Shown: positions 17,303-43,370 of the stretch, piece by piece | How the letters are laid out: every line of letters begins with the position of its first letter | How positions within the stretch are numbered: position 1 is the first letter of the stretch | NCBI GenBank assembly: GCA_027484165.1 | Contig: JAIXWH010000107.1 | Coordinates: 1 to 64,000 of the forward strand | Origin: Chitinophagaceae bacterium | Lineage (GTDB): Bacteria; Bacteroidota; Bacteroidia; Chitinophagales; Chitinophagaceae | DNA: 64,000 nucleotides | Reading direction: 5' to 3' | Translations under genes and position numbers: made by a program | Notes under the pieces: generated by a model | What the model saw: the letters and a program-made list of their open reading frames with translations, nothing else | Database searches by the model: none | Told to the model about the DNA's origin: nothing

Positions 17303-18601
17303 ATGAAATATTTACGTCAGCTATACATTCAGGTTATTATAGGAGTTGTTCTTGGTATTGTTGTTGGGTATTTTTTTCCATCATTGAGCGGAATGGGTAA
17401 AATGATTGGTGAATGCTATATCAATTTAATAAAGATGCTCATCGCACCTTTAATCTTCTTTACCATAACTGCTGGAATTTCAGGTACAGGCAATTTAAAA
17501 AAAGCAGGAAGAATTGGCGGTAAAGCGCTCATTTATTTTGAAGTCGTTTCAACAATTGCTTTATTGTTAGGCATTGTTGTTGCTAATATTGTAAAACCAG
17601 GAATGGGGGTTCCACAAGACACAACAGATACAGTTGGTGCTATTCAAAAAGTGTCAAAAGAAATCAACTGGGGAGATTTTTTCTTACACATGATTCCTTC
17701 TAATATAGTAGACTCGTTTGCTAAAGGAGATATTTTGCAAGTACTCGTTTTTTCTGTTTTATTTGGAATAGCATTAAGCAAACTTGGTCCAACCGGAAAA
17801 TCTATTACTCATAATTTCGACAAGATAAATAAAGTGTTGTTTTCGATTCTTAATATGATTACCGTATTAAGTCCTCTTGCTGCATTTGGTGGCATGTTGT
17901 CTACCGTAGGTGGTAAAAATGGATTTGCGATGCTATATGTGTTGGGCAAATTCATGATGACTTTTTATTTAACTGCTGCATTTTTCATATTTGTTGTTTT
18001 AGGATTGGTGATGAGTTATTACAGACTAAATCTTTTCAAATTATTAAGATACATTAAAGAAGAAATTTTAATTGTGTTTGGCTCAAGTAGCAGCGAGTCT
18101 GTGTTGCCGAATATCATGAGCAAGCTGGAACATGCAGGTTGTTCACCTACTGTTGTGGGTTTAGTGATACCAACAGGATACAGTTTTAATTTGGATGGAA
18201 CAACCATCTACCTTGGTATGTCGGTGTTGTTTATTTCTCAGGCAATGGGAATGGATTTAACTATGATGCAACAACTTACTGTTGTAGGAATTTTATTAAT
18301 TACCAGTAAAGGTGCCGGAGGAATTACCGGAAGCGGCTTGATTATTTTAAAGTCAAGCTTAGATTCCATGAAATTCATTCCAGAAAAATCACAAGGTCAA
18401 TATTTACCATTACTAATTGGTATCGATCGTTTAATGAGCTTAGGAAGAGCATTAACTAATGTTATTGGCAACACAGTAGCTTGTGTAGTGATTGCAAAAA
18501 ATGAAAACTTAATTGATTCAAAAAAGTATAAGGAAGTGGTAGAGAGCAAAAAAGTTGAGGTTTTGGATAATCCGCCATCCAGCTTCGAATTTGAACAATA
18601 A
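17303..18601 (+). CDS. dicarboxylate/amino acid:cation symporter (DctA/GltP family)
   Basis: A 432-residue inner-membrane transporter of the normal family length. It has hydrophobic helices throughout and the serine-rich re-entrant loop FGSSSSESVLPNIM. The NMDGT-type cation/substrate motif appears as GYSFNLDGTTIYLGMS, and the second hairpin as TSKGAGGITGSGLIIL. These are hallmarks of the SLC1/DAACS fold, which imports C4-dicarboxylates or glutamate/aspartate with H+ or Na+. Leu replaces Met in the NMDGT motif. The gene sits 3 bases after the hydrolase and 30 bases before a porin, giving a possible outer-to-inner membrane import route. The exact substrate is not fixed by what can be seen. Confidence 0.93.
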   Translation: MKYLRQLYIQVIIGVVLGIVVGYFFPSLSGMGKMIGECYINLIKMLIAPLIFFTITAGISGTGNLKKAGRIGGKALIYFEVVSTIALLLGIVVANIVKPGMGVPQDTTDTVGAIQKVSKEINWGDFFLHMIPSNIVDSFAKGDILQVLVFSVLFGIALSKLGPTGKSITHNFDKINKVLFSILNMITVLSPLAAFGGMLSTVGGKNGFAMLYVLGKFMMTFYLTAAFFIFVVLGLVMSYYRLNLFKLLRYIKEEILIVFGSSSSESVLPNIMSKLEHAGCSPTVVGLVIPTGYSFNLDGTTIYLGMSVLFISQAMGMDLTMMQQLTVVGILLITSKGAGGITGSGLIILKSSLDSMKFIPEKSQGQYLPLLIGIDRLMSLGRALTNVIGNTVACVVIAKNENLIDSKKYKEVVESKKVEVLDNPPSSFEFEQ

Positions 18602-27805: not shown

Positions 27806-29515
27806 ATGACATTATTGGTTGTAATTATAGTATTAGCCTTAATTTTCGATTATATCAATGGTTTTCATGATGCAGCAAATTCAATAGCTACAGTAGTTTC
27901 AACAAAAGTATTAACACCCGGGCAAGCGGTGGTGTGGGCGGCGGTTTTCAATTGTGTAGCGTATTTCATCTTTAAAGATCATGCTGTAGCAAACTCAATA
28001 AGCAAAACTGTTTTCAAAGATTTTATCACACTTCCTGTAATTTTTTCAGGGTTACTTGCTGCCATTTTTTGGAATCTGCTGACTTGGTGGTATGGTATTC
28101 CTTCCTCTTCTTCACACACATTAATTGGAGCTTTTGCTGGAGCAGCTATTGCACATGCATTGATGTTGAAAGGCTTTGATTATCCATGGTCAAATATTGT
28201 AGATAGCGAAACCATTATTAAAACTATCCTTTTCATTTTCCTTGCACCCATCATAGGTATGGTGATTTCTATTTTTATCACGATTGTAACTATTATGAGA
28301 AATGTATGGTTACGATTAGGCATAATAGCAGTAGTTACAGCTGCTACCGTTTTTATGTTTGATAATTTTGAGTCAACGAAGATCAATGAGAATGTACAAA
28401 AATTTTATAGTACTGATAAGTATAAAAAAGAAATTAAAACCATTAAGTCTGAATTAGAAACAAAAAAAGGAGATACAGCTTTACTTGCAAAGTTGAAATT
28501 GAATGAAGAAAAATTACTAAAAGCAACAGCATCATACGAAAAAGTTCATCCCTATCTGATTCAATACGACAAATTAGGAGCTGATAAAATATCTTCTATT
28601 GCAAAAGATAGTGGTTGGCTTGATAACATTGCAGTAAGTAAACTTAAAGACGCAGTAAGAAATGCAAATGATTATTTGATAGTTGAGGCCAAATCCACTG
28701 AAGATGCAAAAGCTAAAGAAGAATACAGTATTGCAAAAGTAAAAACTGAGTTATATAAATCACCATTAAAAGCATATTTGTCAAAATCAATTACATTAGA
28801 TTCAACTGTTGCTGCAATAAATTTAATTTATCCGATTGCTCCTAAGAATTTGGATAAGGTTAAAGAGAGAATTCAGAAATTCAATATACAAAAGTCTTTT
28901 TCTGAAGAAATAAGTAAAGCGGATAATTCAGCAATTGTATGGGGAATTATTTGGGCTGCAGTTCTTTTTATGCTGATCTATATATATGTTGAAAAAGTTA
29001 GAACACCAACAGCGTACACCATTTCAAACATGTTTAAAAAGCTACAGCTTTTGAGTTCTGCTGCATTCAGTATCGGCCATGGAGGAAATGATGCTCAAAA
29101 AGTAATGGGTATTATTGGAGCAGCATTGATTGCTCATGGATCAATACAGGATTTTAGCAATCTTCCCAATTGGGTTCCATTGGCATGTTATTTAGCCATA
29201 GGTATTGGTACAATGAGTGGCGGATGGAAAATTGTAAAAACGATGGGAACAAAAATTACTAAAGTAACTCCATTAGAAGGTGTAGCTGCAGAAACTGCCG
29301 GAGCATTCACTTTGTTCTTTACAGGTCAGATGGGAATACCGGTATCTACAACCCATACCATTACTGGCTCTATCATAGGTGTTGGTGCTACAAAAAGAAT
29401 GTCTGCTGTTCGTTGGGGTGTTACCGTTAGTTTGCTTTGGGCATGGATACTAACTATACCTATCAGCGCAATTCTAGCTGCGTTAGTATATCTGGTAACT
29501 AGATTATTTGTTTAA
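27806..29515 (+). CDS. PiT-family inorganic phosphate transporter with large insert
   Basis: A 569-residue low-affinity phosphate:cation symporter of the inner membrane. The two inverted PiT signatures are present: DYINGFHDAANSIATVVSTK near the N-terminus and FSIGHGGNDAQKVMGIIGA at about 421-439. Conserved loops GIPSSSSHTLIGAFAG and GIPVSTTHTITGSIIG are both intact. Between a transmembrane segment (about 171-186) and the next (about 376-394) lies a soluble insert of about 190 residues, rich in Lys, Glu and Ala. By the positive-inside rule it should be periplasmic. It pairs with the DUF47 gene. Its stop codon and that of the convergent purD share the four bases TTAA (29512-29515). Confidence 0.95.
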   Translation: MTLLVVIIVLALIFDYINGFHDAANSIATVVSTKVLTPGQAVVWAAVFNCVAYFIFKDHAVANSISKTVFKDFITLPVIFSGLLAAIFWNLLTWWYGIPSSSSHTLIGAFAGAAIAHALMLKGFDYPWSNIVDSETIIKTILFIFLAPIIGMVISIFITIVTIMRNVWLRLGIIAVVTAATVFMFDNFESTKINENVQKFYSTDKYKKEIKTIKSELETKKGDTALLAKLKLNEEKLLKATASYEKVHPYLIQYDKLGADKISSIAKDSGWLDNIAVSKLKDAVRNANDYLIVEAKSTEDAKAKEEYSIAKVKTELYKSPLKAYLSKSITLDSTVAAINLIYPIAPKNLDKVKERIQKFNIQKSFSEEISKADNSAIVWGIIWAAVLFMLIYIYVEKVRTPTAYTISNMFKKLQLLSSAAFSIGHGGNDAQKVMGIIGAALIAHGSIQDFSNLPNWVPLACYLAIGIGTMSGGWKIVKTMGTKITKVTPLEGVAAETAGAFTLFFTGQMGIPVSTTHTITGSIIGVGATKRMSAVRWGVTVSLLWAWILTIPISAILAALVYLVTRLFV

Positions 29516-30750
29516 TTAATTTCACCAATATCTTTTCTGAAATACATTCCATCAAAAGAAATATGATTGATTGATTGATATGCTTTTTCTCTTGCTGAGT
29601 CAAGCGAATCGCCTAGTCCAATTACATTCAACACTCTGCCGCCGGAAGTAATCAGTGAATCTCCATTCTTAATGGCACCTGCAATTGTGTATTCAACATT
29701 AATATGATCCAGACCAGTTATTGTCTTACCAGTTTCAGGAGCATCTGGATAGCCTTTTGAAGCAACCACCACACAACAAGAATGTTGATTTTTCCAGTTT
29801 AATTGAATTTCATTTCCTTTCAAAGCGTTTTCTATTACATCTGTTAAATTGGTATTGAGAAGTGGTAATATGGCTTGAGTTTCTGGATCGCCTAAACGCA
29901 TATTATATTCCAACAGATAACATCTTTTATTCACTACCATCAATCCAAAAAAGATGACTCCAGAAAAAAGTAAATCTCTATTTAGTAATCCTTTTAGTGT
30001 AGGAGTCATTACATGCTCTTCAAAGTCTCTTGCAATCTCTTCTGTATATAAAGAATTGGGAGCAATTGCACCCATCCCTCCTGTATTGGGTCCCTTTTCA
30101 TTCTCGTAAATTTTCTTGTGATCTTTAGCAGATATGAAGGGGTATATTTTCTTTTTATTAAAAACCGAAAGCACAGAAACTTCAAAACCATCTAAAAATT
30201 CTTCTATTACTATTTCATCTCCAGCACTACCCATGATTTTATTAATCAACAAATCATTGATTGTAGTAAGAGCAGTTTCAAAACTATGAACAATGAAAAC
30301 ACCTTTACCTGCGGCCAATCCAGTTGCTTTAATAACCAAAGGATAAGAATGATTTTTCACATAATCAACAGCTGGTTCAATTTGTGTAAAAGCTTTGTGA
30401 GTTGCAGTTCTTACTCCGAATTCGTTCATAAATATTTTAGCAAAAGCTTTGTCACCTTCAAGTAACGCAGCCGCTTTATTAGGTCCGAATATCTTTAAAT
30501 TTCTTTTTTCAAATTCATCAACAATACCTTCCATCAATAAAGCTTCAGAACCCACAATGGTCAAATCTATTTTTTCTTTTAATGCAAAATCTACAATCTC
30601 ACGCAATGAACTTATTGAAACATTGGTACCAATACTTTCGGTACCACCATTTCCTTTGGCAAAAAATAATTCATGAGCAGGATTATCTTTTTTTATTTTG
30701 ATACCTATTGCATGCTCGCGACCTCCATTTCCAATAATTAATATATTCAT
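29512..30750 (-). CDS. purD: phosphoribosylamine-glycine ligase
   Basis: ATP-grasp enzyme of 412 residues catalysing the second step of purine synthesis, joining glycine to phosphoribosylamine. The N-terminal MNILIIGNGGREHAIG is diagnostic. GEKGPNTGGMGAIAPN appears here as YENEKGPNTGGMGAIAP, and LEYNMRLGDPETQAILP carries the metal ligands. It is the last gene of the clustered purine operon, 52 bases after purH. It converges on the PiT gene with overlapping stop codons, leaving no space for a terminator between them. Confidence 0.97.
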   Translation of the reverse strand: MNILIIGNGGREHAIGIKIKKDNPAHELFFAKGNGGTESIGTNVSISSLREIVDFALKEKIDLTIVGSEALLMEGIVDEFEKRNLKIFGPNKAAALLEGDKAFAKIFMNEFGVRTATHKAFTQIEPAVDYVKNHSYPLVIKATGLAAGKGVFIVHSFETALTTINDLLINKIMGSAGDEIVIEEFLDGFEVSVLSVFNKKKIYPFISAKDHKKIYENEKGPNTGGMGAIAPNSLYTEEIARDFEEHVMTPTLKGLLNRDLLFSGVIFFGLMVVNKRCYLLEYNMRLGDPETQAILPLLNTNLTDVIENALKGNEIQLNWKNQHSCCVVVASKGYPDAPETGKTITGLDHINVEYTIAGAIKNGDSLITSGGRVLNVIGLGDSLDSAREKAYQSINHISFDGMYFRKDIGEIN

Positions 30751-30802
30751 GCGTGTATTTTACTTTACATTATAGTCAAATGTATAAAAGACTATTTTGT
30801 TC

Positions 30803-32323
30803 TTAATGTTTAAAATGTCTTACTGCTGTGAACACCATGCTGATTCCCTTTTCATTACAGGCATCAATTGAGTCTTGATCTTTAATAGAACCGCCGGGTT
30901 GTATGATTGTTTTGATTTTATTTTCAAAACAAGTATTTACAATATCATTAAATGGGAAGAACGCATCAGATGCCAATACACATTCTGCAAGATTGATATT
31001 TTTTTCTTTTGCCTGATGAATGGCTTGTTCAACCGCACGCACTCTGTTGGTTTGTCCGCTTCCTATTCCAACGGTAACAAAATTATGCACCAAAACAATT
31101 GCATTGGAAGTACAATGCTTAACTACTTTTTGTGCAAACACCAATTGAGCAAATTCATTTTCATTTGGGGCTAAATTAGTAACGTTATTAATTTCGTAGG
31201 AATTCATATGGTCTCTGGTTTGAACTAATAAGCCACCATCTATCGAGATAATATTTTTATCATTAGATGCATACAATTGAGCTTTAATCACCCGTAAATT
31301 TTTCTTCTTAGAAAATTCTGCCAACGCTTCTACTTCAAATTCAGGAGCAATAATCACTTCAAGAAACAGCTCATTCATCATCATTGCTGTTTTTTGAGAA
31401 ACCTTTGTATTGAATGCAACTATACCCCCAAAGATGGAAACCGGATCAGCTGCATATGTTTTTTGATAAGCTTCGATATCATTTTCTCCGCAAGCAACTC
31501 CACATGGCGTGTTGTGTTTTACTGCACAACAAACAGGTTCTGTAAATTCATTCACCACATTCAAAGCTGATTGAATATCTCTGTAATTATTGTACGAAAG
31601 CTCTTTGCCTTGTAATTGTTGCCAGTCATTAATATTGGGCTTCTTTGTTAAATCAGCGTATACAGCTGCTTGCTGATGAGGATTTTCGCCATACCTTAAT
31701 ATTTCCTTCAATTGAAAAGTATGGGTGGCATATTCAGGAAACAATTCTTCATTTAAAAAATTCGAAACAGATGCATCGTAAGCAGCTGTAAGATTGTAAA
31801 CTTTTGCAGCGAGTTTTTTTCTTGTGTTAATTGTTGTTGATGCTTGAGATCTGATTTCATTGATTACCAAATCGTAATCGTTGATATCTGTTAATACAGT
31901 AACGTCAGTATAGTTTTTCGCTGCCGCTCTCAACAAAGAAGGTCCTCCGATATCTATAAATTCTATCAGTTCATCATGAGATAAATTTTCCTGTTGCTTT
32001 TTTACAAAAGGGTAGAGGTTTACTATCACATAATCCACAGCAAGAATTTGATGTTCGTTAACTGTTTGTTGATGGACTTCATTATTTCTTTTAAAGAGAA
32101 TACCACCAAATAATTTAGGATGCAATGTTTTTACTCTGCCATCCAGCATTTCTGGAAACAAAGTGTAGTCTGTAACATCAGTCACAGCAATGTTTTTATC
32201 CTGTAGGTATTTTAAAGAACCTCCTGTAGCTAAAATCTCAACGTTAATTCCAATTAAACATTTTGCGATGGCTTCTATATTTGTTTTATCATAAACACTA
32301 ATCAGCGCCTTGTGCTTTTGCAT
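30803..32323 (-). CDS. purH: bifunctional AICAR transformylase/IMP cyclohydrolase
   Basis: A 506-residue two-domain enzyme for the last two steps to IMP. The N-terminal IMP cyclohydrolase (MGS-like) domain carries LATGGSLKYL and VKTLHPKLFGGIL. The C-terminal transformylase carries RYGENPHQQAAVY and the catalytic region VKHNTPCGVACG. It uses 10-formyl-tetrahydrofolate, linking it to folD in this window. Its start overlaps the end of purN by 26 bases, indicating translational coupling. Length and motifs are standard. Confidence 0.97.
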   Translation of the reverse strand: MQKHKALISVYDKTNIEAIAKCLIGINVEILATGGSLKYLQDKNIAVTDVTDYTLFPEMLDGRVKTLHPKLFGGILFKRNNEVHQQTVNEHQILAVDYVIVNLYPFVKKQQENLSHDELIEFIDIGGPSLLRAAAKNYTDVTVLTDINDYDLVINEIRSQASTTINTRKKLAAKVYNLTAAYDASVSNFLNEELFPEYATHTFQLKEILRYGENPHQQAAVYADLTKKPNINDWQQLQGKELSYNNYRDIQSALNVVNEFTEPVCCAVKHNTPCGVACGENDIEAYQKTYAADPVSIFGGIVAFNTKVSQKTAMMMNELFLEVIIAPEFEVEALAEFSKKKNLRVIKAQLYASNDKNIISIDGGLLVQTRDHMNSYEINNVTNLAPNENEFAQLVFAQKVVKHCTSNAIVLVHNFVTVGIGSGQTNRVRAVEQAIHQAKEKNINLAECVLASDAFFPFNDIVNTCFENKIKTIIQPGGSIKDQDSIDACNEKGISMVFTAVRHFKH

Positions 32324-32876
32324 ATAATACTTTTATGGATTCAATTAATATTTCTTTTTCTAACAGATGAACTTTTTTTTGAAGAGAATCTGGTGTTTCA
32401 TTGAGGTCAACACTGCAAGTTTTTTGCATTAATATATTTCCTTCGTCAACGCCTTCAGTAACATAATGAACGGTAGCTCCAGATTGTGTTTCTTTGTTTT
32501 TGATTACCTCTTGATGTACTTTCAAACCATACATTCCTTTCCCTCCATACTTAGGCAATAGTGAAGGATGAAGATTAATGATTTTATTTTTCCATTCCTC
32601 ACAAATAGTGTTATTCAATATGGATAAAAATCCTGCAAGTACAATATGAGAAATTTGTTTTGATTTCAGAGTAGCATAAATTTCATCAGCCCAATTGGAT
32701 TTTCTAGTCACGAGCATCACTTCGATACCGGCTTGTTCAGCTCTTTGAATGGCGAAGCAGTCTCTGTCGGCAATTACCACATCAATCGTAATTTCATTCA
32801 ACATTTTTTGTTGAACAGCATCAATGATGCATTGAAGATTACTGCCATTACCGGAAACAAAAACAGCCAAACGCAT
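32298..32876 (-). CDS. purN: folate-dependent GAR transformylase
   Basis: A 192-residue enzyme that formylates GAR with 10-formyl-tetrahydrofolate. The phosphate-binding VSGNGSNLQCII, the catalytic Asn/His region KIINLHPSLLPKYGG, and the loop SGATVHYVTEGVDEG with its Asp are all intact. Start and stop are tightly packed: its ATG overlaps the purM stop by one base (TAATG), and its end overlaps purH by 26 bases. PurT at 4537-5712 performs the same conversion with formate, so the genome is redundant at this step. Confidence 0.97.
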   Translation of the reverse strand: MRLAVFVSGNGSNLQCIIDAVQQKMLNEITIDVVIADRDCFAIQRAEQAGIEVMLVTRKSNWADEIYATLKSKQISHIVLAGFLSILNNTICEEWKNKIINLHPSLLPKYGGKGMYGLKVHQEVIKNKETQSGATVHYVTEGVDEGNILMQKTCSVDLNETPDSLQKKVHLLEKEILIESIKVLYAKAQGAD

Positions 32877-33877
32877 TAGTTGATGATAATTTTATTTTCA
32901 GAATTACTGATGATGTTACCTAAATGAAATGCAACCAAATTATTTTCTTGAATATGTTTTAATATATCTTCAGTCATCGCCTTTTCAACAACTATGGCCA
33001 ATCCAACGCCCATATTAAATGTACCGTGCATTTCTTTTTCTTCGATCTTTCCTCTTTCTTGCAATAATTTGAATATTGGTTGCTGAGGGATATTGTCTTT
33101 GTAAATATTTGCACACATTGATTCAGGAATGATTCGAGGAACATTTTCGTACAAGCCACCGCCTGTGATGTGAGCAATGCCTTTGATTTTAAAATTAGCA
33201 ACCAAGCTGTTGATGATATTACTATACAATGCAGTAGGTGTGAGCAATGTTTTCCAGATAGGTTCATTATTAAAAACTTCATGCAAATCTGGAATCAGTT
33301 TTCGTACTAATGAAAACCCATTACTGTGTAAACCGCTTGAAGCAATTCCAATAATTGTATCTCCTTCATTAATATTTGCACCAGTGATAATGTTTTCTTT
33401 TTCAACAATTCCGACACAAAATCCTGCAACATCATAATCTCCAATTTTGTACATACCAGGCATTTCTGCAGTTTCTCCTCCAATTAAAGCGGTTCCTGTT
33501 TGTTCACATGCATGAGCCATTCCTTTGATGATTTCTGAAGCCTCATGGGCATCTAATTTCCCGCATGCCAAATAATCTAAAAAGAATAATGGCTTAGCAC
33601 CATGACAAGAAATATCATTGGCACACATGGCAAAACAATCAATTCCAATTGTGTCTAACTTCTTTACTTCTAACGCAATTTTTATTTTAGTACCAACGCC
33701 ATCTGTTCCAGAAACCAGTACAGGGTTATTGTATTTGCCTAATTCATATAAAGCACCAAATTGTCCTAACTCTGTTAAAACATTTTTATTGTAAGTCTTT
33801 TTAACCAAAGGCTTGATTAAATCAACCGTTTTGTAACCTTCTTCTTTATCTACTCCTGCGTTTTTGTAGGTTGTCAT
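32876..33877 (-). CDS. purM: AIR synthetase (phosphoribosylformylglycinamidine cyclo-ligase)
   Basis: A 333-residue enzyme converting FGAM to AIR with ATP. The signature VSGTDGVGTKIKIALEV and the glycine-rich segments AEMPGMYKIGDYDVAGFCVG and AHITGGGLYENVPRI are present. The length is normal. It sits 18 bases after purF and shares one base with the purN start. It belongs to the same structural superfamily as the core of PurL, encoded upstream in this operon. Confidence 0.97.
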   Translation of the reverse strand: MTTYKNAGVDKEEGYKTVDLIKPLVKKTYNKNVLTELGQFGALYELGKYNNPVLVSGTDGVGTKIKIALEVKKLDTIGIDCFAMCANDISCHGAKPLFFLDYLACGKLDAHEASEIIKGMAHACEQTGTALIGGETAEMPGMYKIGDYDVAGFCVGIVEKENIITGANINEGDTIIGIASSGLHSNGFSLVRKLIPDLHEVFNNEPIWKTLLTPTALYSNIINSLVANFKIKGIAHITGGGLYENVPRIIPESMCANIYKDNIPQQPIFKLLQERGKIEEKEMHGTFNMGVGLAIVVEKAMTEDILKHIQENNLVAFHLGNIISNSENKIIIN

Positions 33878-33895
33878 ACTTTTTTATTTTATCAA

Positions 33896-35308
33896 TTAGG
33901 CTTCTACGTTAGTTAATGTCTCTAATTCACCATTTTTGTTTACAGGATATTTTTCTGTAAAGCATCCATAACAGTAACCTTCTTCTTTCAATAAATCTTT
34001 TAAATTGTTCATTGACAGGAAAGTAAGACTATCAACACCTAAGTAAGATTTTATTTCTTCGAGTGAGTTTTTGGCTGCAATCAAATGTTCTTTCTCTGGA
34101 GTATCAACTCCTAAAAAACAAGGAGCGATTATGGGTGGTGATGCAGAAACAAAATGTATTTCTTTTGCGCCCGCATTTTTAAAGATATTAACGAGTCTTT
34201 TACTTGTTGTTCCTCTTACAATTGAATCATCCATAATTACCACACGCTTTCCTTTGATTTCACTAACTATTGGATTTAGTTTAAGCATTACCGTTCTCTC
34301 GCGCATTTCCTGAGAAGGTGTAATAAATGATCTTCCGAGGTATCTATTTTTTAGTAATATTGGTCTGAATGGAATACCCGAAGCATTTGAATATCCAATA
34401 GCAGCAGGAACACCTGAATCAGGAACACCAATAACCACATCGGCTTCGATATGATGCTGTTCCCATAGTTTTCTTCCTGAGAGTTCTCTGAATTTATAAA
34501 TACTGTCTCCTTCCATCATGCTGTCGGGTCTGGAAAAATAAATGTATTCAAATGAACAGAGTCCTCTTTGTTGATGTTGTTTGATATTGTATGATTGTAT
34601 ACCCTGATCATTAATGACAATCATTTCACCGGGTTCGATTTCTCTGATAAAATTTGCACCAACCGCATCTAGTCCGCAAGTTTCACTACTTACAACATAC
34701 GTTTCATCTTCTGTAATTCCTAATGACAAGGGTCTGATACCATGAGCGTCTCTGAAAGCTACCAAACTATCGCGTGTTAAAAGCACACAACTAAATGCAC
34801 CCTTTACCAATTTGAATACTTCAGTTACTGCTTTCTCTAATCCTTCATTAAAATGTTTTTGTATAATTCGCAACATTACTTCCGTATCAGAATGATTTGA
34901 TACAAATTCCAATCCTTCTTTTTCCAGTTGAGTTCTTAAAGGAGCGCTGTTTACTAAGTTTCCATTGTGAGCCAATGAAATATAAACTTCTCCCTTTTCA
35001 TTTTTTGTAAATAGTGGTTGAATATTTCTTTTGCTTTGTCCACCTGTTGTACTGTATCGTGTATGACCTATAGCTGCATTACCCTGATACAATTCAGGAT
35101 TATCAATCAATGAGAAAGCCTCAATAACGAGACCTTCCTTTTTAAAAGAGTAAATATTTTTTTTACTGAGAAAAGAAATCCCACAAGCTTCCTGTCCTCT
35201 ATGTTGCAAAGCAATCAAGCCAAATTGCATTAATGAAAAAGTGTCGATTTGTTTTTTAGAGTATAAACCAAATACACCACATTCTTCATTTAATTTATCT
35301 GATACCAT
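33896..35308 (-). CDS. purF: amidophosphoribosyltransferase
   Basis: A 470-residue enzyme for the committed purine step (PRPP plus glutamine to phosphoribosylamine). The N-terminus MVSDKLNEECGVFG implies a nine-residue propeptide removed to expose the catalytic Cys10. The Ntn glutaminase domain has GHTRYSTTGG. The phosphoribosyl domain has the PRPP loop VVIMDDSIVRGTTS. The C-terminal CYGCFTEKYPV suits the Cys-rich region of the Fe-S-type enzymes, with other Cys at APCFLGV and FTSLCSFEY-like positions. It lies 7 bases after purC. Confidence 0.97.
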   Translation of the reverse strand: MVSDKLNEECGVFGLYSKKQIDTFSLMQFGLIALQHRGQEACGISFLSKKNIYSFKKEGLVIEAFSLIDNPELYQGNAAIGHTRYSTTGGQSKRNIQPLFTKNEKGEVYISLAHNGNLVNSAPLRTQLEKEGLEFVSNHSDTEVMLRIIQKHFNEGLEKAVTEVFKLVKGAFSCVLLTRDSLVAFRDAHGIRPLSLGITEDETYVVSSETCGLDAVGANFIREIEPGEMIVINDQGIQSYNIKQHQQRGLCSFEYIYFSRPDSMMEGDSIYKFRELSGRKLWEQHHIEADVVIGVPDSGVPAAIGYSNASGIPFRPILLKNRYLGRSFITPSQEMRERTVMLKLNPIVSEIKGKRVVIMDDSIVRGTTSKRLVNIFKNAGAKEIHFVSASPPIIAPCFLGVDTPEKEHLIAAKNSLEEIKSYLGVDSLTFLSMNNLKDLLKEEGYCYGCFTEKYPVNKNGELETLTNVEA

Positions 35309-35315
35309 AAATGGT

Positions 35316-36029
35316 TTATTTTTTTAGTCGTTGTAATATTTCAACATAAGCTTCTCTTACATCACCTAAATCTCTTCTGAATCTATCTTTATCTAATTTT
35401 TTCAAAGTGTTTTTATCCCAAAGTCTGCAAGTATCCGGACTGATTTCGTCAGCAAGAATAATATTGCCATTGCTATCTTTTCCGAATTCAATTTTAAAAT
35501 CAATCAGTAAAATATCTTCTTTAAAAAAGAGTTCTTTTAAAATCGTATTTATTTTAGCCGTTTCGGAATAGATGTAGTTGATTTCATCATAAGTTGCAAG
35601 TCCTAATGCAACAGCATGATGGTCGTTGATTAAAGGATCTCCCAATGCATCTTTTTTGTAACACAACTCGTAAACAATATTCGGAATTTCCATTCCTTCC
35701 TCTACTCCCAAAATTCTGGCGGTGCTACCGGCAAGTCTGTTTCTGGTGATGACTTCTAATGGAACAATCGAAACTTTTTTACAAAGCTGTTCGCGTTCAT
35801 TTAATTTTTCAATAAAATGAGTTTTAATTCCTTGTACTGCAAGATGCTCATAAATCAAACTGGTGATTTCATTATTTAATGCACCTTTATCTTCTATCGT
35901 TCCTCTTTTTTGTGCATTAAAAGCAGTTGCATCATCTTTAAAATGAACTATAATATATTCAGGATCTTTAGTAGCAAATACTTGTTTTGCTTTTCCTTCA
36001 TAGAGCATTTCTAATTTTTCTATACTCAT
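35316..36029 (-). CDS. purC: SAICAR synthetase
   Basis: A 237-residue enzyme joining aspartate to CAIR with ATP. Its diagnostic features are [14 protein letters not shown] at the N-terminus, the [17 protein letters not shown] segment, and [15 protein letters not shown] followed by [13 protein letters not shown]. The length is typical of the bacterial single-domain form. It sits between purL (20-base gap) and purF (7-base gap). The purE, purK and purB genes needed around this step are not in the window. Confidence 0.97.
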
Positions 36030-36049: not shown

Positions 36050-39000
36050 TTATAAAAAATAATCAACTCCGTTTTTAAAAATATTTTGATAACTGATTTC
36101 AGGAATGTTCTTAAATCTTCCAGGTTTCATTCTTTCCGGATGACTCATTCTTCCGAATATATTTCCATTTTCACTGATTAATCCTTCCACCGCATACACA
36201 CTACCGTTAGGATTGTGTGGAAACAGGTTTGATGGATGGTTGTTTATATCAACATACTGTGTTGCTATCTGATTGTTTTGTATCAATCCTTGCAATGTTT
36301 CATCACAGGAATAAAATCTCCCTTCCCCATGAGAAACTGGAACAATAAATTCTTTATTGAGCATTCCCTGTAACCATGGAGAATGATCGTTAACCACTTT
36401 AATCCTTACCATTTGAGAAATATGTCTTCCTATGGCATTGTGTGTTAATGTTGGTGCACTTGGATCCAAATCTTTGATTTCGCCATAAGGCAATAAGCCA
36501 GATTTGATTAATGCCTGAAAGCCATTACAAATTCCAAGAATCAAACCGCCTCTTTGAATCAACTCGTGTATACTATTTTGAATGGTTTTATTTTTCAACA
36601 CATTCACAATAAATTTTGCAGAACCATCGGGTTCGTCGCCTGCGCTGAATCCTCCGCTAAAAACAAGTATTTGTGATTTGTTGATTTGTTTTGAAAAGGT
36701 ATCAATAGACTCAGCTACTGAATGTTTATCATGGTTTTTAAAAATCAAACTTTGAACGTTTGCTCCTTCTTTTGAGAAAGCATCAGTAGTTTCAAATTCA
36801 CAATTAGTGCCCGGAAATACAGGTAAAAACACATTAGGTTTTCCGTGACCAATATTTTTTATTGATTTGGACGCTACTGAAATGTTAGGAATAATATCAT
36901 CCGATGTTTTCACAGTAGTAGGAAATAAATTCTCAAAAGTATTAGTCCAATATCCAATAGCTTCATCGATATCTACTTTAATTTCATTCAATCCAATTTG
37001 ATTCGACGAATTAGTCTTTCCAATTAAAACAAAATTTTCATCCAACTCAACAGAAGATTCAATAATGATACTACCTAATTTCAAATCTAAAAGATCGATA
37101 GTTGTATTGATTTCAACACCAATTTTATTTCCAAAACACATTTGAGACACACAAGAGGCAATACCACCATCTTTAATAGTTTTAGCCGCTATGATTTTTT
37201 TAGATTGAATATAAGATTGGATGTTATTCCAAGAAGTTTTTAATTCATTCCATTTTGGAATATATTTTTCATCAACAGGCAATTCAAAAAGATAGATGAA
37301 ACTATTGTAAGATTGAAAAGCAGTAGATATGATATGTTCAGCTTTTTGTGTGGTAACAGCAAAGCTCACAAAAGTGGGTGGCACATTCAATTCTTTAAAT
37401 GTACCGCTCATACTGTCTTTACCGCCAATAGCTGCAATCCCCAATTGATGTTGTGCTTCGAAAGCTCCCATTAAAGTGGCAAAGGGCTTACCCCATTTAT
37501 TTGCATCGTTTCCTAACTTTTCAAAATATTCCTGAAAGGTTAAATAGCAAGAGGCATAATCACCACCGGCAGCAACAATTTTACTCACTGATTCTATTAT
37601 TGCATAAATTCCTCCAAGATATTGATTCGCTGCAGTGAAACCAGGATGGTAGCCCCACGAAGCCATACTTACGGTTTGTGTAGCATAGTTTTCATCACAA
37701 ATAAAATGAGCAGATACATCGTTAGGAGATAGCTGGTATTTTCCGCCGAAGGGCATTAAACAAGTATTACCATAAACGGTACTGTCAAAATGTTCAATCA
37801 TTCCTTTTTGAGAAGCCACTTCTTTAGATGAAAGCGTTTTTAAAAAAGAATCTTTGGTAAAAGTTGATGTAGCATTTTGATAAACATCATTTGCAATGCT
37901 AATTACATCATTACATCGAGTGGCCCCATTAGTATGAAGAAAATCTCTTTTTAGTGAAACAATTTCATTATCGTTCCACTTCATTCTTAATACACCATCA
38001 TCAGTAACTTTGGCAATTGCTGTTGCCTTCACATTTTCTTCTTTGGCGTAACTTATAAATGCATCCACATCTTCTTTCCTAACTACCACAGCCATTCTTT
38101 CCTGTGATTCAGATAAGGCGATTTCAGTTCCATTCAATCCATCGTATTTCAGAGGCACCTGATTCAAATTAATATCGATGCTCTCTGCAATTTCTCCAAT
38201 CGCTACACAAACGCCACCAGCACCAAAGTCGTTACACTTTTTGATGAGCTGAGTGACTTCATTTCTTTTAAATAATCTTTGAATTTTTCTTTCAGTGATT
38301 GCATTACCTTTTTGAACTTCTGATTGCATGGTTGCAATAGAAGTTTCATTATGTTGCATCGACGAACCGGAAGCCCCTCCAATGCCGTCTCTTCCTGTGT
38401 CGCCACCAATCAACAAAACAACATCACCGGCTTGTGGATCTTCTTCCTTTACATTTTCTTTTTTTACCGCAGCCATCACAAAACCACATTCAAATCTTTT
38501 TGCTTTATATCCTTCATGAAATATTTCTGAAACCAATGAAGTAGCTAAACCAATTTGATTTCCATAAGAGCTGTAACCTAATGCAGCTTCTTTAGAAATT
38601 TTTTGTTGTGTGAGTTTAGAGGCGATTGTATTTTTTACCGGTTCAACAGGATTGCCTGCACCGCTCACTCTCATGGCTTGATATACAAACGCTCTTCCGC
38701 TTAATGGATCTCTGATTGCACCACCAATACAAGTGGCTGCACCACCAAAGGGTTCTATTTCTGTAGGATGATTATGCGTTTCGTTTTTAAAGAGCAACAA
38801 CCACTTTTCATTTTTTCCTTTCACGTCTACATCCACTTCAATGGTAGCTGCATTGTTTTCTTTTGAACGGTGATATTGAGGAAGCTGGTTTTTATAAAGA
38901 AAATATTTAGGCAAAATAGTACCAAGCTCCATTAAGGTGATAGGTGTATTTTCTTTTCCAACCTCTTTTTTTATTTTTTGATACTTGTCGAAAGTAGCTT

Positions 39001-39712
39001 CTAACTCATTTTTATACGCGCCTTCAAATTTGATGTTATTGAGGTGTGTTAAAAAAGTAGTATGTCTGCAATGATCACTCCAGTAGGTATCCAGTGCTTT
39101 GATTTCAGTAATTGTTGGATTTCTTTTTTCCCCAATAAAATAGTTTTGAATACAAATCAAATCTTCAATATCAATAGATAATCTGTTCGATTTTAAAAAT
39201 GATTCTAATGCTGATGGGTCAAAGTCGATAAAGCCATCTATTGTCAGTACCTGAGCAGGTTCTTGTACAATCGGCTTTTCAAGCAACAACAAATCTTTTT
39301 CTCTCGAATCAATTGTATTGATTAAATGTTTTTTTATGATATTGATATCATCCTCATTGACATCATCTAGTCCAATTACCTGCGAGGTTTGAATATAAGT
39401 GTTGTTATGTTCTAACAATAATTGACAACACTGCATGGCAGCATCTGCTCTTAAATCAAATTGTCCGGGTAAGTATTCAATAGCAATAGTTTGTTTGTGT
39501 TGTGGAAGTTCAAACAAACATTTTTCAATAACAGGATCTGTAAAAACAGAAGGGATGATGATTTTTAATTCTTCTTCAGTAGTATTGAAAATATCGTAAG
39601 TAGAATATACTTTGATTTTAGCGGATACTCCTAATTGAGTGAGCTCACGTTGAAGTACATCGGTTTTTACATCAAATCCATTTTGTTTTTTTATGTAAAT
39701 ACGAGTGTTCAA
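36050..39712 (-). CDS. purL: FGAM synthase, single-chain PurL, with TTG start
   Basis: Large one-piece FGAM synthase of about 1220 residues. An N-terminal PurS-like part is followed by two AIR-synthase-like halves ([33 protein letters not shown]) and a C-terminal class I glutaminase. The glutaminase has the nucleophile in [14 protein letters not shown] and the His/Glu in [11 protein letters not shown]. The frame has no usable ATG. It is open up to TTG at 39733, and a second TTG at 39712 gives [15 protein letters not shown], which matches the start of related PurL proteins. I therefore choose 39712, with 39733 as the alternative. It is first in the seven-gene purine operon, so the unusual initiation codon may limit its translation. 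Confidence 0.93.
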
Positions 39713-39733
39713 TGAATAGAGTTTAACACACAA

Positions 39734-40088: not shown

Positions 40089-41456
40089 TTAGTAGATATC
40101 ACAACTTCTTACAGCGGCTAAATATTTTTCTATTTCAACTTCCGGTTGTGTTGAAGCGTATAATCCTCTTCCAATAATTAAGAAATCGGAGCGTAGTGTT
40201 TCTATTACAAATTCAGGAGTGTTGTATTGTTGGCCTTTATCATCACCCTTGCTTGCTAAGTTCACACCTGGCGTAAATTTCAAAAAGGGAGTATCTATTT
40301 CAAAAGTTTGACAAACGCCTCCAAGCACATCTGAATATTTATACATGAATTTCTTACAATTATCCATATAATGTTTATCGGTAAGAGCACCCTGGCTCGA
40401 CATTTCAATGATCGGAATCAGGCCAGGTTTTTTGTCGGTATCCCAGTCCTGTATTGCTTTTAAAGAAGCTTCACCTGCAATCAGATGTATAGTAACCATA
40501 TCGGCCCATGAAGCTATGGAGTAAATGCCTTTACTCAGTTGAAGGAGTTGCGTGTTTCCAATATCGGCAAATTTGCGGTCTTCGATGATTAAGAAGTTAT
40601 GTTTTTGTGCAATAGATCTCAGTTCTAAAACAAAATCATGCGAGAAATCTGTGATGATATCCACGTGTAGCTTTACCGCACAAATGCCACTACCCACTTT
40701 TGCAAGAAAATCCAATACTTCTTTAGAGGTAGTTAAATCAACCGATGCAATGAGGTTGCTTTTTTTAGCATGGGCAATATTTAAAAGTTGTTGACCAATT
40801 GCATTGGGATGAGTTTTTGCAAGCTTCTTTTTTGATTTTACTACTGGAGTTGTGATTTGTGAATCATGAATGAAGTTCAAAACATCGTGATACAATTTTT
40901 CTTCTATTTTTCCATCTTCAAAAAGAATCTTAATTAGAGAAGAAATTGTAAATAGCGACTGTACCTCATATCCTTTCGCTTTTAATCTGTCGCTTCCGCC
41001 TTGTTCACGATCAAGTACCACCAAAATCTGTTCAATAGCTAATCCTTCACTTTCCAACTCTGTAATAGTTTCCAGCAAGCTTTCACCGCTTGTAATCACA
41101 TCTTCAATCAACAATACTTTATCTCCTTTTTTAAATTCGCCTTCTACAATTTTTTTCGTTCCGTAATTTTTAGCTTCCTTTCTTTTAATCAACATCGGAA
41201 GATTTGTATTTATTGAAACCGCTGTTGCCATGGGAAGTGCAGCATAAGGCACACCGCATATTCGCTGAATCTCTTTGCTGATATGTGTTTCAAAAAATAC
41301 AGACAACTCAGCAAGCATCTTGGGATAAGAAACAATGTTTCTTAAATCAATATAGATGGGAGATTTCTTTCCGCTTTTTAAAGTGAAGTCGCCAAACTTT
41401 ACACATTCAATATCTACAAGGGATTTTAAAAAAGAGGAAGTATTGTTCATGACCAT
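40089..41456 (-). CDS. fused orotate phosphoribosyltransferase-OMP decarboxylase (UMP synthase)
   Basis: A 455-residue bifunctional enzyme for the last two steps to UMP. Residues 1-200 are orotate phosphoribosyltransferase, with LKSGKKSPIYIDLRN and the PRPP loop KVLLIEDVITSGES (113-126). A short Lys-rich linker (about 207-214) leads to OMP decarboxylase (about 218-455). That domain has CAVKLHVDI (Lys262), the catalytic IEDRKFADIGNT (291-302), IASWADMV, EMSSQGAL, FTPGVNL, GQQYNTPE and IIGRGLY. The domain order and the decarboxylase motifs match eukaryotic UMP synthase rather than the usual separate bacterial pyrE and pyrF. It follows pyrD by 12 bases. Translation could also start at the ATG at 41450. 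Confidence 0.93.
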   Translation of the reverse strand: MVMNNTSSFLKSLVDIECVKFGDFTLKSGKKSPIYIDLRNIVSYPKMLAELSVFFETHISKEIQRICGVPYAALPMATAVSINTNLPMLIKRKEAKNYGTKKIVEGEFKKGDKVLLIEDVITSGESLLETITELESEGLAIEQILVVLDREQGGSDRLKAKGYEVQSLFTISSLIKILFEDGKIEEKLYHDVLNFIHDSQITTPVVKSKKKLAKTHPNAIGQQLLNIAHAKKSNLIASVDLTTSKEVLDFLAKVGSGICAVKLHVDIITDFSHDFVLELRSIAQKHNFLIIEDRKFADIGNTQLLQLSKGIYSIASWADMVTIHLIAGEASLKAIQDWDTDKKPGLIPIIEMSSQGALTDKHYMDNCKKFMYKYSDVLGGVCQTFEIDTPFLKFTPGVNLASKGDDKGQQYNTPEFVIETLRSDFLIIGRGLYASTQPEVEIEKYLAAVRSCDIY

Positions 41457-41468
41457 TTTTTGTTCGGT

Positions 41469-42398
41469 TTAAATTTCATTTAGTTTGCCTTTGAAATCAT
41501 TGATACTATTGTATCCTTTTACATTCATGATTTCAGCAAGTTCATTACTAATTCTTTCAAAGCAGGTTTTTCCTTCTTCCCACAATGTAGTACCAATTTG
41601 AACCATGCTCGCTCCGCACAGAATATGTTCAAAAGCATCCTGTCCGGTTTGAACGCCTCCACATCCCACCACATCAATATTATTAAGGAGTTTATAAAAC
41701 ATTCTAACATTAGCCAATGCGGTAGGTTTGATAAACAATCCACCAATTCCACCAAATCCATTTTTGGGTTTGATAACAGTTGACTCTGTTGCAGTATCAA
41801 TCCACATTCCATTACCGATGCTGTTTACGCAACAAACATAAGCAAGAGGAAATTTATTCAATACCTCTGCCATAGCTTCAAAATGCGCCATATCGAAGTA
41901 GGGCGGTAGTTTTACGGCGATGGGCTTTTTACAAATGGCAAAAGCCTCATTTAATAAGGATTCCGTAGCATCAAAATCGTAACCTGTTTGAGGTTTACCT
42001 GGAATATTTGGACAAGATAAATTGAGTTCAATAATTTTTATGGCTGCAGACTGATTTGCGATTGCAAGCAATTCAAGATTTTCAGTTTTAGAAAGTCCAG
42101 CAACTGAAAGCATAATTAGCTTATCTGTTTCAGCTTGATTTTTTTCAATGAAATCGATATAATATTTGATTCCATTATTAGGCAATCCCATAGAATTGAT
42201 GCTGCCGTAAGGGATAGTGGCATAACGAGGTTCAGGATTTCCTACTCTATATTCAAGCGTACAACTTTTGGTAACCACAGCACCAACACCTTCATTCAAC
42301 AAAGCATCAAGTTCATCAAGATTGGTGCAATGAACACCTGAGGCATTCATCAAACAGTTTTGTAATTTAAATCCGGATAGGGAGGTAGATAGATTCAT
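41469..42398 (-). CDS. pyrD: class 1A (fumarate-type) dihydroorotate dehydrogenase
   Basis: A 309-residue enzyme oxidising dihydroorotate to orotate. It has the class 1A landmarks: SINSMGLPNNGIKYY, the catalytic base Cys129 in LNLSCPNIPGKPQTGYD, VKLPPYFDMAHF, VNSIGNG and KNGFGGIGGLFIKPTALANVR. It lacks the membrane-binding N-terminal helix of quinone-linked class 2 enzymes. Class 1A enzymes use fumarate as electron acceptor, so this step would not need the respiratory chain. It lies between folD (42-base gap) and the UMP synthase (12-base gap), and its product is the synthase's substrate. Confidence 0.95.
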   Translation of the reverse strand: MNLSTSLSGFKLQNCLMNASGVHCTNLDELDALLNEGVGAVVTKSCTLEYRVGNPEPRYATIPYGSINSMGLPNNGIKYYIDFIEKNQAETDKLIMLSVAGLSKTENLELLAIANQSAAIKIIELNLSCPNIPGKPQTGYDFDATESLLNEAFAICKKPIAVKLPPYFDMAHFEAMAEVLNKFPLAYVCCVNSIGNGMWIDTATESTVIKPKNGFGGIGGLFIKPTALANVRMFYKLLNNIDVVGCGGVQTGQDAFEHILCGASMVQIGTTLWEEGKTCFERISNELAEIMNVKGYNSINDFKGKLNEI

Positions 42399-42440: not shown

Positions 42441-43328
42441 TTATTTCATGTTAGTCTCTCTTGCTTCGTATGCATTGAATGTATTTTTCAACAAAGCTGC
42501 AATGGTCATTAATCCTACGCCACCTGGTACAGGTGTGATATAAGATGATTTTGGTGCCACATGTTCAAAATCAACATCTCCTTTAATGCTAAACCCTGAT
42601 TTTTTAGTTTCGTCAGCAACTCTGGTGATACCCACATCAATTACCACTGCATTTTCTTTTACCATATCGGCAGTTAAAAACCCCGGTATTCCTAATGCTG
42701 CAACAATAATATCTGCCTGCAAACAAATTTCTTTTAGATTTTTAGTATGACTGTGACAAAGGGTTACAGTGCAGTTTCCATAAGGGTTTTGCTGACTGAG
42801 TAATATACTCATGGGTCTTCCTACAATATTACTTCTTCCAATAACAACAGCATGTTTGCCCTTGGTTTCAATTTTGTAATGTTCCAACATCAGCATCACA
42901 CCATAAGGTGTAGCCGGTATAAAAGCAGGAGAGCCCTGAATCAACTTGCCTGTGCTCATCGGATGAAACCCGTCTACATCTTTTGAGGGATCAATCGCGT
43001 TGATGATTCTTTCGTTATTGATATGTTGAGGTAAGGGTAATTGAACTAATATACCATCAATCTTATTGTCGTTATTTAATTCTTCAACTACTTTGATAAG
43101 TGCTGCTTCTGTAATAGATTCATCGAGACGTATCGTTTTATTTAAAAATCCAATCTCATCGCAGTTTTTAGCTTTGCTGGCAACGTAGGTTTCACTTGCA
43201 CCATTATTTCCAACAATTACGGCAGCTAAAAAGGGAAGTCGTTTTCCGCTTTGTTTAAGCTCATCAACTTTAATTTTTAAAGTATCTTTTACGCTTTGCG
43301 ATACGATTTTGCCGTCGAGTAATTGCAT
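42441..43328 (-). CDS. folD: methylenetetrahydrofolate dehydrogenase/cyclohydrolase
   Basis: A 295-residue bifunctional enzyme that makes 10-formyl-tetrahydrofolate. The signatures AYVASKAKNCDEIGF (substrate Tyr/Lys in TYVASK), DGILVQLPLPQH, PSKDVDGFHPMSTGKL and VIGRSNIVGRPM are complete, and PGGVGLMTIA closes the NADP domain. The frame extends 7 codons upstream, but homologues begin at MQLLDGK, so the ATG at 43328 is used. Its product feeds PurN and PurH in the operon to the left. Confidence 0.97.
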   Translation of the reverse strand: MQLLDGKIVSQSVKDTLKIKVDELKQSGKRLPFLAAVIVGNNGASETYVASKAKNCDEIGFLNKTIRLDESITEAALIKVVEELNNDNKIDGILVQLPLPQHINNERIINAIDPSKDVDGFHPMSTGKLIQGSPAFIPATPYGVMLMLEHYKIETKGKHAVVIGRSNIVGRPMSILLSQQNPYGNCTVTLCHSHTKNLKEICLQADIIVAALGIPGFLTADMVKENAVVIDVGITRVADETKKSGFSIKGDVDFEHVAPKSSYITPVPGGVGLMTIAALLKNTFNAYEARETNMK

Positions 43329-43370
43329 GGGTGCAAATGTAAAAAACAAAGAGGTATTAAATTAAAATTT

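Follow-up and report, generated by a model that had tools for sequence, protein, structure and literature searches.

A bacterial UMP synthase of the animal and plant domain order, paired with a class 1A dihydroorotate dehydrogenase in a small group of Bacteroidota

Introduction

Bacteria typically employ separate proteins for orotate phosphoribosyltransferase (OPRT, PyrE) and OMP decarboxylase (OMPDC, PyrF), and in the literature consulted here the fused UMP synthase (UMPS) is treated as a eukaryotic trait (PMC9978035). The OPRT-OMPDC order occurs widely among eukaryotes (PMC2705460, PMC9512073), and fusions of the reverse order are found in kinetoplastids, oomycetes, diatoms, and some cyanobacteria (PMC2705460). 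For class 1A dihydroorotate dehydrogenase (DHODH), the organisms listed are Gram-positive bacteria, trypanosomatids, and some fungi (PMC10395836). A 64,000-nucleotide stretch of DNA from a member of the Chitinophagaceae (the window, in full) encodes a UMPS of the animal and plant order beside a class 1A DHODH, and the question is how such a pair came to be in the Bacteroidota and how it is related to the eukaryotic enzyme. A first-pass annotation had suggested transfer or an ancient eukaryotic link.

Results

The pair lies in a run of minus-strand genes in the order folD, DHODH1A, UMPS, purL, purC, purF, purM, a short open reading frame (ORF), purH, and purD, with the following features.

42441..43349, minus strand: folD, upstream in the run with DHODH1A (FolD models, up to 404 bits)
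41469..42398, minus strand: class 1A (fumarate-type) DHODH, here DHODH1A, 309 residues, ORF confirmed at these coordinates (NF002702, 478 bits)
40089-41456, minus strand: UMPS (OPRT-OMPDC fusion), 455 residues, ORF confirmed at these coordinates
40857..41456, minus strand: N-terminal OPRT domain (PyrE) of UMPS, residues 1-200 (TIGR00336; best solved relative the OPRT of human UMPS, 2wns)
40761..40856, minus strand: inter-domain linker of UMPS, residues 201-232, alignable with those of the human and other bacterial enzymes
40089..40760, minus strand: C-terminal OMPDC domain (PyrF) of UMPS, eukaryotic type (PF00215 over residues 233-445)
36050..39733, minus strand: purL, large single-chain type, downstream of UMPS (TIGR01857, 1572 bits)
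29512..36029, minus strand: purC, purF, purM, short ORF, purH, and purD, the rest of the purine run (NCBIfam models except for the short ORF)
32298-32876, minus strand: short ORF at the purN position, placed by position only, with no model match

DHODH1A is upstream of UMPS with a gap of 12 bp, and the adjacency of folD to the pair is kept in the genomes G738, G747, and G678. No pyrK was found among the identified neighbouring genes in the window, which elsewhere (17303-18601) encodes a DctA-like C4-dicarboxylate carrier.

The domain order of the UMPS, OPRT then OMPDC in one chain, follows from the coverage of residues 12-173 by TIGR00336 (pyrE, 149.8 bits, cut-off 106.8) and of residues 235-445 by TIGR01740 (pyrF, 154.5 bits, cut-off 92.3); PF00215 gives 148.8 bits on the OMPDC part. 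The fusion in the animal and plant order that had been read from the sequence at first pass is thereby confirmed. Each domain is much closer to its eukaryotic counterparts than to the usual bacterial PyrE or PyrF. Specifically, among solved structures the OPRT part scores 186 bits with human UMPS and 157 with Leishmania UMPS vs about 70 or less with bacterial pyrE, and the OMPDC part scores 172 bits with the yeast enzyme and 166 with the human one vs 38 with Vibrio pyrF; the OMPDC of Leishmania UMPS gave no match in the search of solved structures. These scores, together with those of the domain models, exclude chance. The OMPDC of Epilithonimonas UMPS behaves in the same way, with 185 bits to 8u0z, whose sequence we take to be plant-like, and 179 to the human enzyme vs 22 or less to any ordinary pyrF.

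The OMPDC motifs EDRKFADIGNT, IASWADMV, and GQQYN, which the first-pass annotation had called eukaryotic in kind, do align with human UMPS, and all ten catalytic and binding residues (D240, K262, D293, K295, D298, T302, S353, Q409, Y411, and R430) are the same as in that enzyme. The human reference sequence is identical to 2wns over residues 7-203 (OPRT), and over the OMPDC part it is consistent with the PDB alignments. The window enzyme thus has the domain order, the OPRT and OMPDC types, the catalytic residues, and an alignable linker in common with human UMPS, and differs from it in being bacterial, 39% identical, encoded in an operon beside DHODH1A, and shorter in its linker. Cyanobacterial OMPDC-OPRT proteins (PRK05500) and kinetoplastid UMPS likewise have both activities in one chain and a related OPRT type, but their domain order is reversed relative to that of the window.

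The assignment of the neighbouring gene to class 1A also held: NF002702 (‘dihydroorotate oxidase’, class 1A type) scores 478 bits against a cut-off of 301, and the best solved relative is DHODH A of Lactococcus lactis (395 bits, 59% identity), followed by that of S. mutans (374 bits). The protein starts level with L. lactis DHODH A, has no N-terminal membrane segment, and keeps the active-site Cys130 (L. lactis numbering) and the FMN and substrate residues (K43, N67, N127, N132, K164, N193, and K213). The class 1A DHODH of Lactococcus is not known to be paired with a UMPS.

The genome (G000) is a MAG-like draft of 2.5 Mb in 158 contigs, 100% complete. Profile searches of the assembly, which the first-pass annotation had proposed as a check, found no second OMPdecase, and no second DHO_dh or pyrE above cut-off, so that the pair in the window provides the only pyrE, pyrF, and pyrD of the genome. 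The sister genomes that are free of the pair (G622, G739, and G752) have a stand-alone pyrE and another, longer DHODH, which in G622 and G752 falls in the class 2 set of the DHODH tree. Hence, the pair is a replacement rather than an addition. Within the genus, DHODH1A was found in five of 93 genomes (G000, G738, G756, G747, and G678), at 93% identity to G000 in G738 and 71% in the other three, and each of the five has UMPS adjoining it. Therefore, a lineage within the genus, a small group of freshwater-type Bacteroidota, has swapped nucleotide-synthesis enzymes, and the pair's status as foreign to its genus is supported; the swap probably occurred by transfer between bacteria. The UMPS and DHODH1A trees have the same branching order within the five carriers, and thus the pair was inherited together there. 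The large-type PurL (TIGR01857) was found in six of the 93 genomes, the five carriers and one other at 44%; this large single-chain PurL (36050-39733) is a second swapped nucleotide-synthesis enzyme.

Beyond the genus, UMPS is patchy. A full-length UMPS was present in nine of 395 sampled Bacteroidota genomes, namely G000 and eight of family f4 (families carry our own labels), whose carriers have Chryseobacterium, Epilithonimonas, and Cloacibacterium as close named relatives. It was present in one of 294 genomes sampled from the window's own family and in 14 of 258 genomes of the Chitinophagales, chiefly in family f66 (11 of 20 genomes), as well as in the Weeksellaceae and on plasmids of Saprospira. 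A search of the viral_contigs set found no UMPS, and viral carriage was rejected on that basis.

The adjacency of UMPS and DHODH1A recurs in four families of the Chitinophagales and on the Saprospira plasmid, in varying relative orientation. The two genes are adjacent or at most a few kb apart in the five carriers, in f66 (G857, G828, G842, G889, G836, G819, and G876), in f58 (G816), in f2 (G979, G1021, and G1034), and in Saprospira. The Weeksellaceae and the genomes G863 and G798 have UMPS with no adjacent DHODH1A, and the DHODHs of G331, G281, and G863 fall in the class 2 set. The Weeksellaceae and Saprospira proteins are the same fusion as that of the window, 46-49% and 38% identical to it. 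Unlike the window gene, however, the Weeksellaceae copies are away from any DHODH1A, and those of Saprospira are on plasmids of about 53 kb that carry DHODH1A and UMPS beside purB, purC, purH, purL-type genes, guaB, and guaA. In Saprospira grandis (locus L078, NZ_CP110855.1 2521-33837) much of the purine and pyrimidine set is on such a plasmid (purB, purC, purH, purL/Q-like, guaB, guaA, DHODH1A, and UMPS). Stretches of about 2.7 kb that are open in several or all six frames were seen near the f2 UMPS locus (L181:13355-16193 and L183:2815-5561), probably a long repeat array.

Trees were used to place the window proteins relative to those of eukaryotes. The window UMPS is 46-49% identical to those of the Weeksellaceae, 46% to that of G863, and 39% to the human enzyme; human UMPS is 37-44% identical to the bacterial set, about as close to it as bacterial UMPS of other families are to the window protein (35-48%). 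The full-length tree, with human as the only eukaryote, separates the window clade, Weeksellaceae, and G863 from f66, Saprospira, and human (99/98, unrooted); f58_G816 was left out of such trees because of its long branch. Holding f66 and Saprospira together without the eukaryotes was not rejected (p-AU 0.125 with human, 0.244 with a provisional plant row added). In the OMPDC tree a single branch (100/99) among the bacterial lineages unites human, yeast, 8u0z, and three further eukaryotes entered as provisional sequences; some trees include Drosophila, Arabidopsis, and S. pombe rows that are provisional and unverified, and the main split holds with human alone. Ordinary OMPDC is unsuited as a root, being too distant (22 bits or less). 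In the OPRT tree the bacterial and eukaryotic UMPS rows stand apart from the pyrE of the sister genomes and of other Bacteroidota, and high support for uniting the UMPS rows in one clade is lacking; when a nearer outgroup is used, neither a single clade of all UMPS (p-AU 0.265) nor one of bacterial UMPS (0.385) was rejected, and with other bacterial pyrE as outgroup the eukaryotes branch off first, weakly. Neither the scores nor the domain trees place both domains in ordinary bacterial clades with a local fusion. All the eukaryotic-type OMPDCs that we found in bacteria are part of fusions of this order, with a linker that can be aligned, and the trees support kinship of the fused proteins without giving a direction of transfer. 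The bacterial UMPS is an old and varied branch of its own in the Bacteroidota, with the eukaryotes as one branch among the bacterial lineages. In a MAG called Thaumarchaeota (L027:3451-9325), an unfused OPRT of the eukaryote-like type, 46% identical to that of the window, directly precedes an OMPdecase of ordinary type (70 bits), and a DHODH is close by.

The DHODH1A has a different placement. The proteins of the five carriers fall with Lactococcus (82/96) rather than with the DHODH1As of f66, and since this grouping is with Lactococcus-type enzymes, DHODH1A gives no eukaryotic link. The link suggested at first pass hence stands in part, for the UMPS domains and their alignable linker, which are of eukaryotic kind, and falls for the dehydrogenase. 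Likewise, of the proposed transfer, the foreignness of the pair to its genus is upheld while direct import from a eukaryote is not, given the diverse UMPS family of the Bacteroidota.

A third gene accompanies the pair in relatives. It encodes a protein of about 300 residues with a tRNA-synt_2 core and no anticodon domain, resembling asparaginyl-tRNA synthetase (AsnRS), and adjoins the pair in four Chitinophagales families, namely f66, f58, f2, and, in two of the five carriers, that of the window. It is absent from G000. Among 396 Chitinophagales genomes it was found in 11, all of which have UMPS within about 2 kb. Its positions by the UMPS/DHODH1A pair are as follows.

L007:9459-10343, L103:4605-5513, L107:10472-11377, L108:7247-8128, and L110:115-1017: AsnRS-like gene
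L111:9518-10426, L112:1310-2314, L113:4507-5514, and L114:7716-8618: AsnRS-like gene
L180:1180-2181, L181:9478-10479, L182:8884-9822, and L183:9200-10132: AsnRS-like gene

The protein corresponds to PHROG 29758, a family of unknown function, and viral contigs contain at least 580 relatives of it; this truncated AsnRS-like protein is common in marine phages. Its structure as predicted by AlphaFold from a 30-sequence alignment (pLDDT 82.6, vs 33 from the single sequence) is closest to human AsnRS (Z 27.0, 257 residues, 2.8 Å), with AspRS, LysRS, EpmA/GenX, and archaeal asparagine synthetase A close behind. Some of the viral genes are beside OPRT, purC, purM, or purN (near OPRT, purC, or purM in L251:3817-4401, L252:4180-4722, L235:246-1007, L260:7199-7990, and L239:2258-3154), and this hints at a connection with nucleotide synthesis in the viral contigs as well. 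In contigs of cyanophage type, a tRNA of 83-92 nt with a GUU (Asn) anticodon, a long variable arm, and a tRNA-Leu-looking body follows the AsnRS-like gene after 12-40 bp (about 220 bp in L262), among others at L206:5829-5913, L209:5669-5756, L215:3219-3303, L219:1056-1141, L252:5816-5898, and L264:6798-6882; gene and tRNA are perhaps an unusual synthetase/tRNA pair. At L201:5820-5870 an apparent tRNA 3' half and the AsnRS-like gene overlap at the end of the latter. No adjoining tRNA was found for the Bacteroidota genes, except for unrelated ones further off in L111.

Discussion

We propose that the pair is a working pyrimidine module that was swapped in between bacteria, and that its UMPS belongs to a Bacteroidota family sharing a fusion ancestor with the UMPS of animals and plants, a reading that we consider highly probable. 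In the proposed pathway DHODH1A would make orotate from dihydroorotate, passing the electrons to fumarate (step 4), by analogy with characterised class 1A enzymes, and UMPS, judged by its sequence, would convert orotate and PRPP to OMP and decarboxylate this to UMP (steps 5 and 6). The pair would have replaced the usual stand-alone pyrE and pyrF and class 2 pyrD in one small clade of the genus, arriving by transfer between bacteria and then being built into the purine operon. We also speculate that, through its linkage to purine genes, the module could be coupled to fumarate released by PurB. Beyond the five carriers the two genes differ in history, with UMPS going with the Weeksellaceae and G863, which have no class 1A enzyme at the locus, and DHODH1A with Lactococcus; thus, the pair may have been assembled more than once. 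For UMPS itself, we infer a single rather than a double fusion event behind the Bacteroidota family and the animal and plant enzymes.

The direction in which the fused gene crossed between domains of life can be read in two ways. An old transfer from an early eukaryote into the Bacteroidota, with subsequent spread among them, is possible though not probable: it is consistent with the wide occurrence of this order in eukaryotes (PMC2705460, PMC9512073) and with the early, weakly supported divergence of eukaryotic OPRTs when bacterial pyrE is the outgroup, but in the unrooted trees the eukaryotes are surrounded by bacterial lineages of equal or greater depth. The reverse, from an f66/Saprospira-like member of the Bacteroidota or an unsampled bacterium into early eukaryotes, is likewise possible though not probable. 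Human and plant are on the f66/Saprospira side of the tree (98-99) and weakly (80/76) beside a subset of it; however, the grouping of f66 with Saprospira to the exclusion of eukaryotes survived the AU tests given above, the tree is unrooted, and the eukaryotic end branch is long. It is somewhat doubtful that a bacterial fusion like those that Saprospira-like Bacteroidota still have was the ancestor of animal and plant UMPS; if it was, the last two steps of eukaryotic pyrimidine synthesis would be a bacterial gift.

Independent fusions of the same kinds of domain in bacteria and eukaryotes are improbable. OPRT and OMPDC have been fused more than once, as the reverse order attests (PMC2705460), and an OPRT of the same type is also found unfused in the Thaumarchaeota MAG, but the shared order and alignable linker of all bacterial OMPDCs of eukaryotic type found here argue for a common origin, as does the great distance of ordinary pyrF (22 bits or less). 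A recent import, in which the freshwater lineage took UMPS straight from a eukaryote, is very improbable and largely refuted: among solved structures, human, yeast, and plant-like enzymes come closest and the gene is patchy in the window's family (1/294), yet its closest relatives are bacterial, it groups with those of the Weeksellaceae and G863 (99/98) away from human, and many other Bacteroidota carry it. Contamination or mis-binning of the window contig, which a MAG-like draft of 158 contigs might suggest, has a negligible chance of being the explanation, given that this contig and CAIKYB010000007.1 (64.6 kb), from separate assemblies, share the locus and its flanks at 78-93%, that the locus is common to three more genomes, that the GC content of UMPS (36%) is near that of the window (34%), and that the complete genome would otherwise be without pyrE, pyrF, and pyrD.

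The essence of our proposal, a bacterial module with a fusion ancestor common to animals and plants, involves enzyme kinds that were already known. In our literature search, which had most subscription journals outside it, no bacterial family with the animal and plant domain order was mentioned, and looking for UMPS in Bacteroidetes or Saprospira brought up nothing relevant. It is easy to overlook such genes because an NCBIfam search finds no model for the OPRT-OMPDC order and the Saprospira proteins are annotated as pyrF only. The recurrent pairing with DHODH1A in Bacteroidota adds to the known range of class 1A enzymes, and now that bacteria are seen to have a diverse branch of matching order and domain types, the origin of the eukaryotic fusion becomes a testable question.
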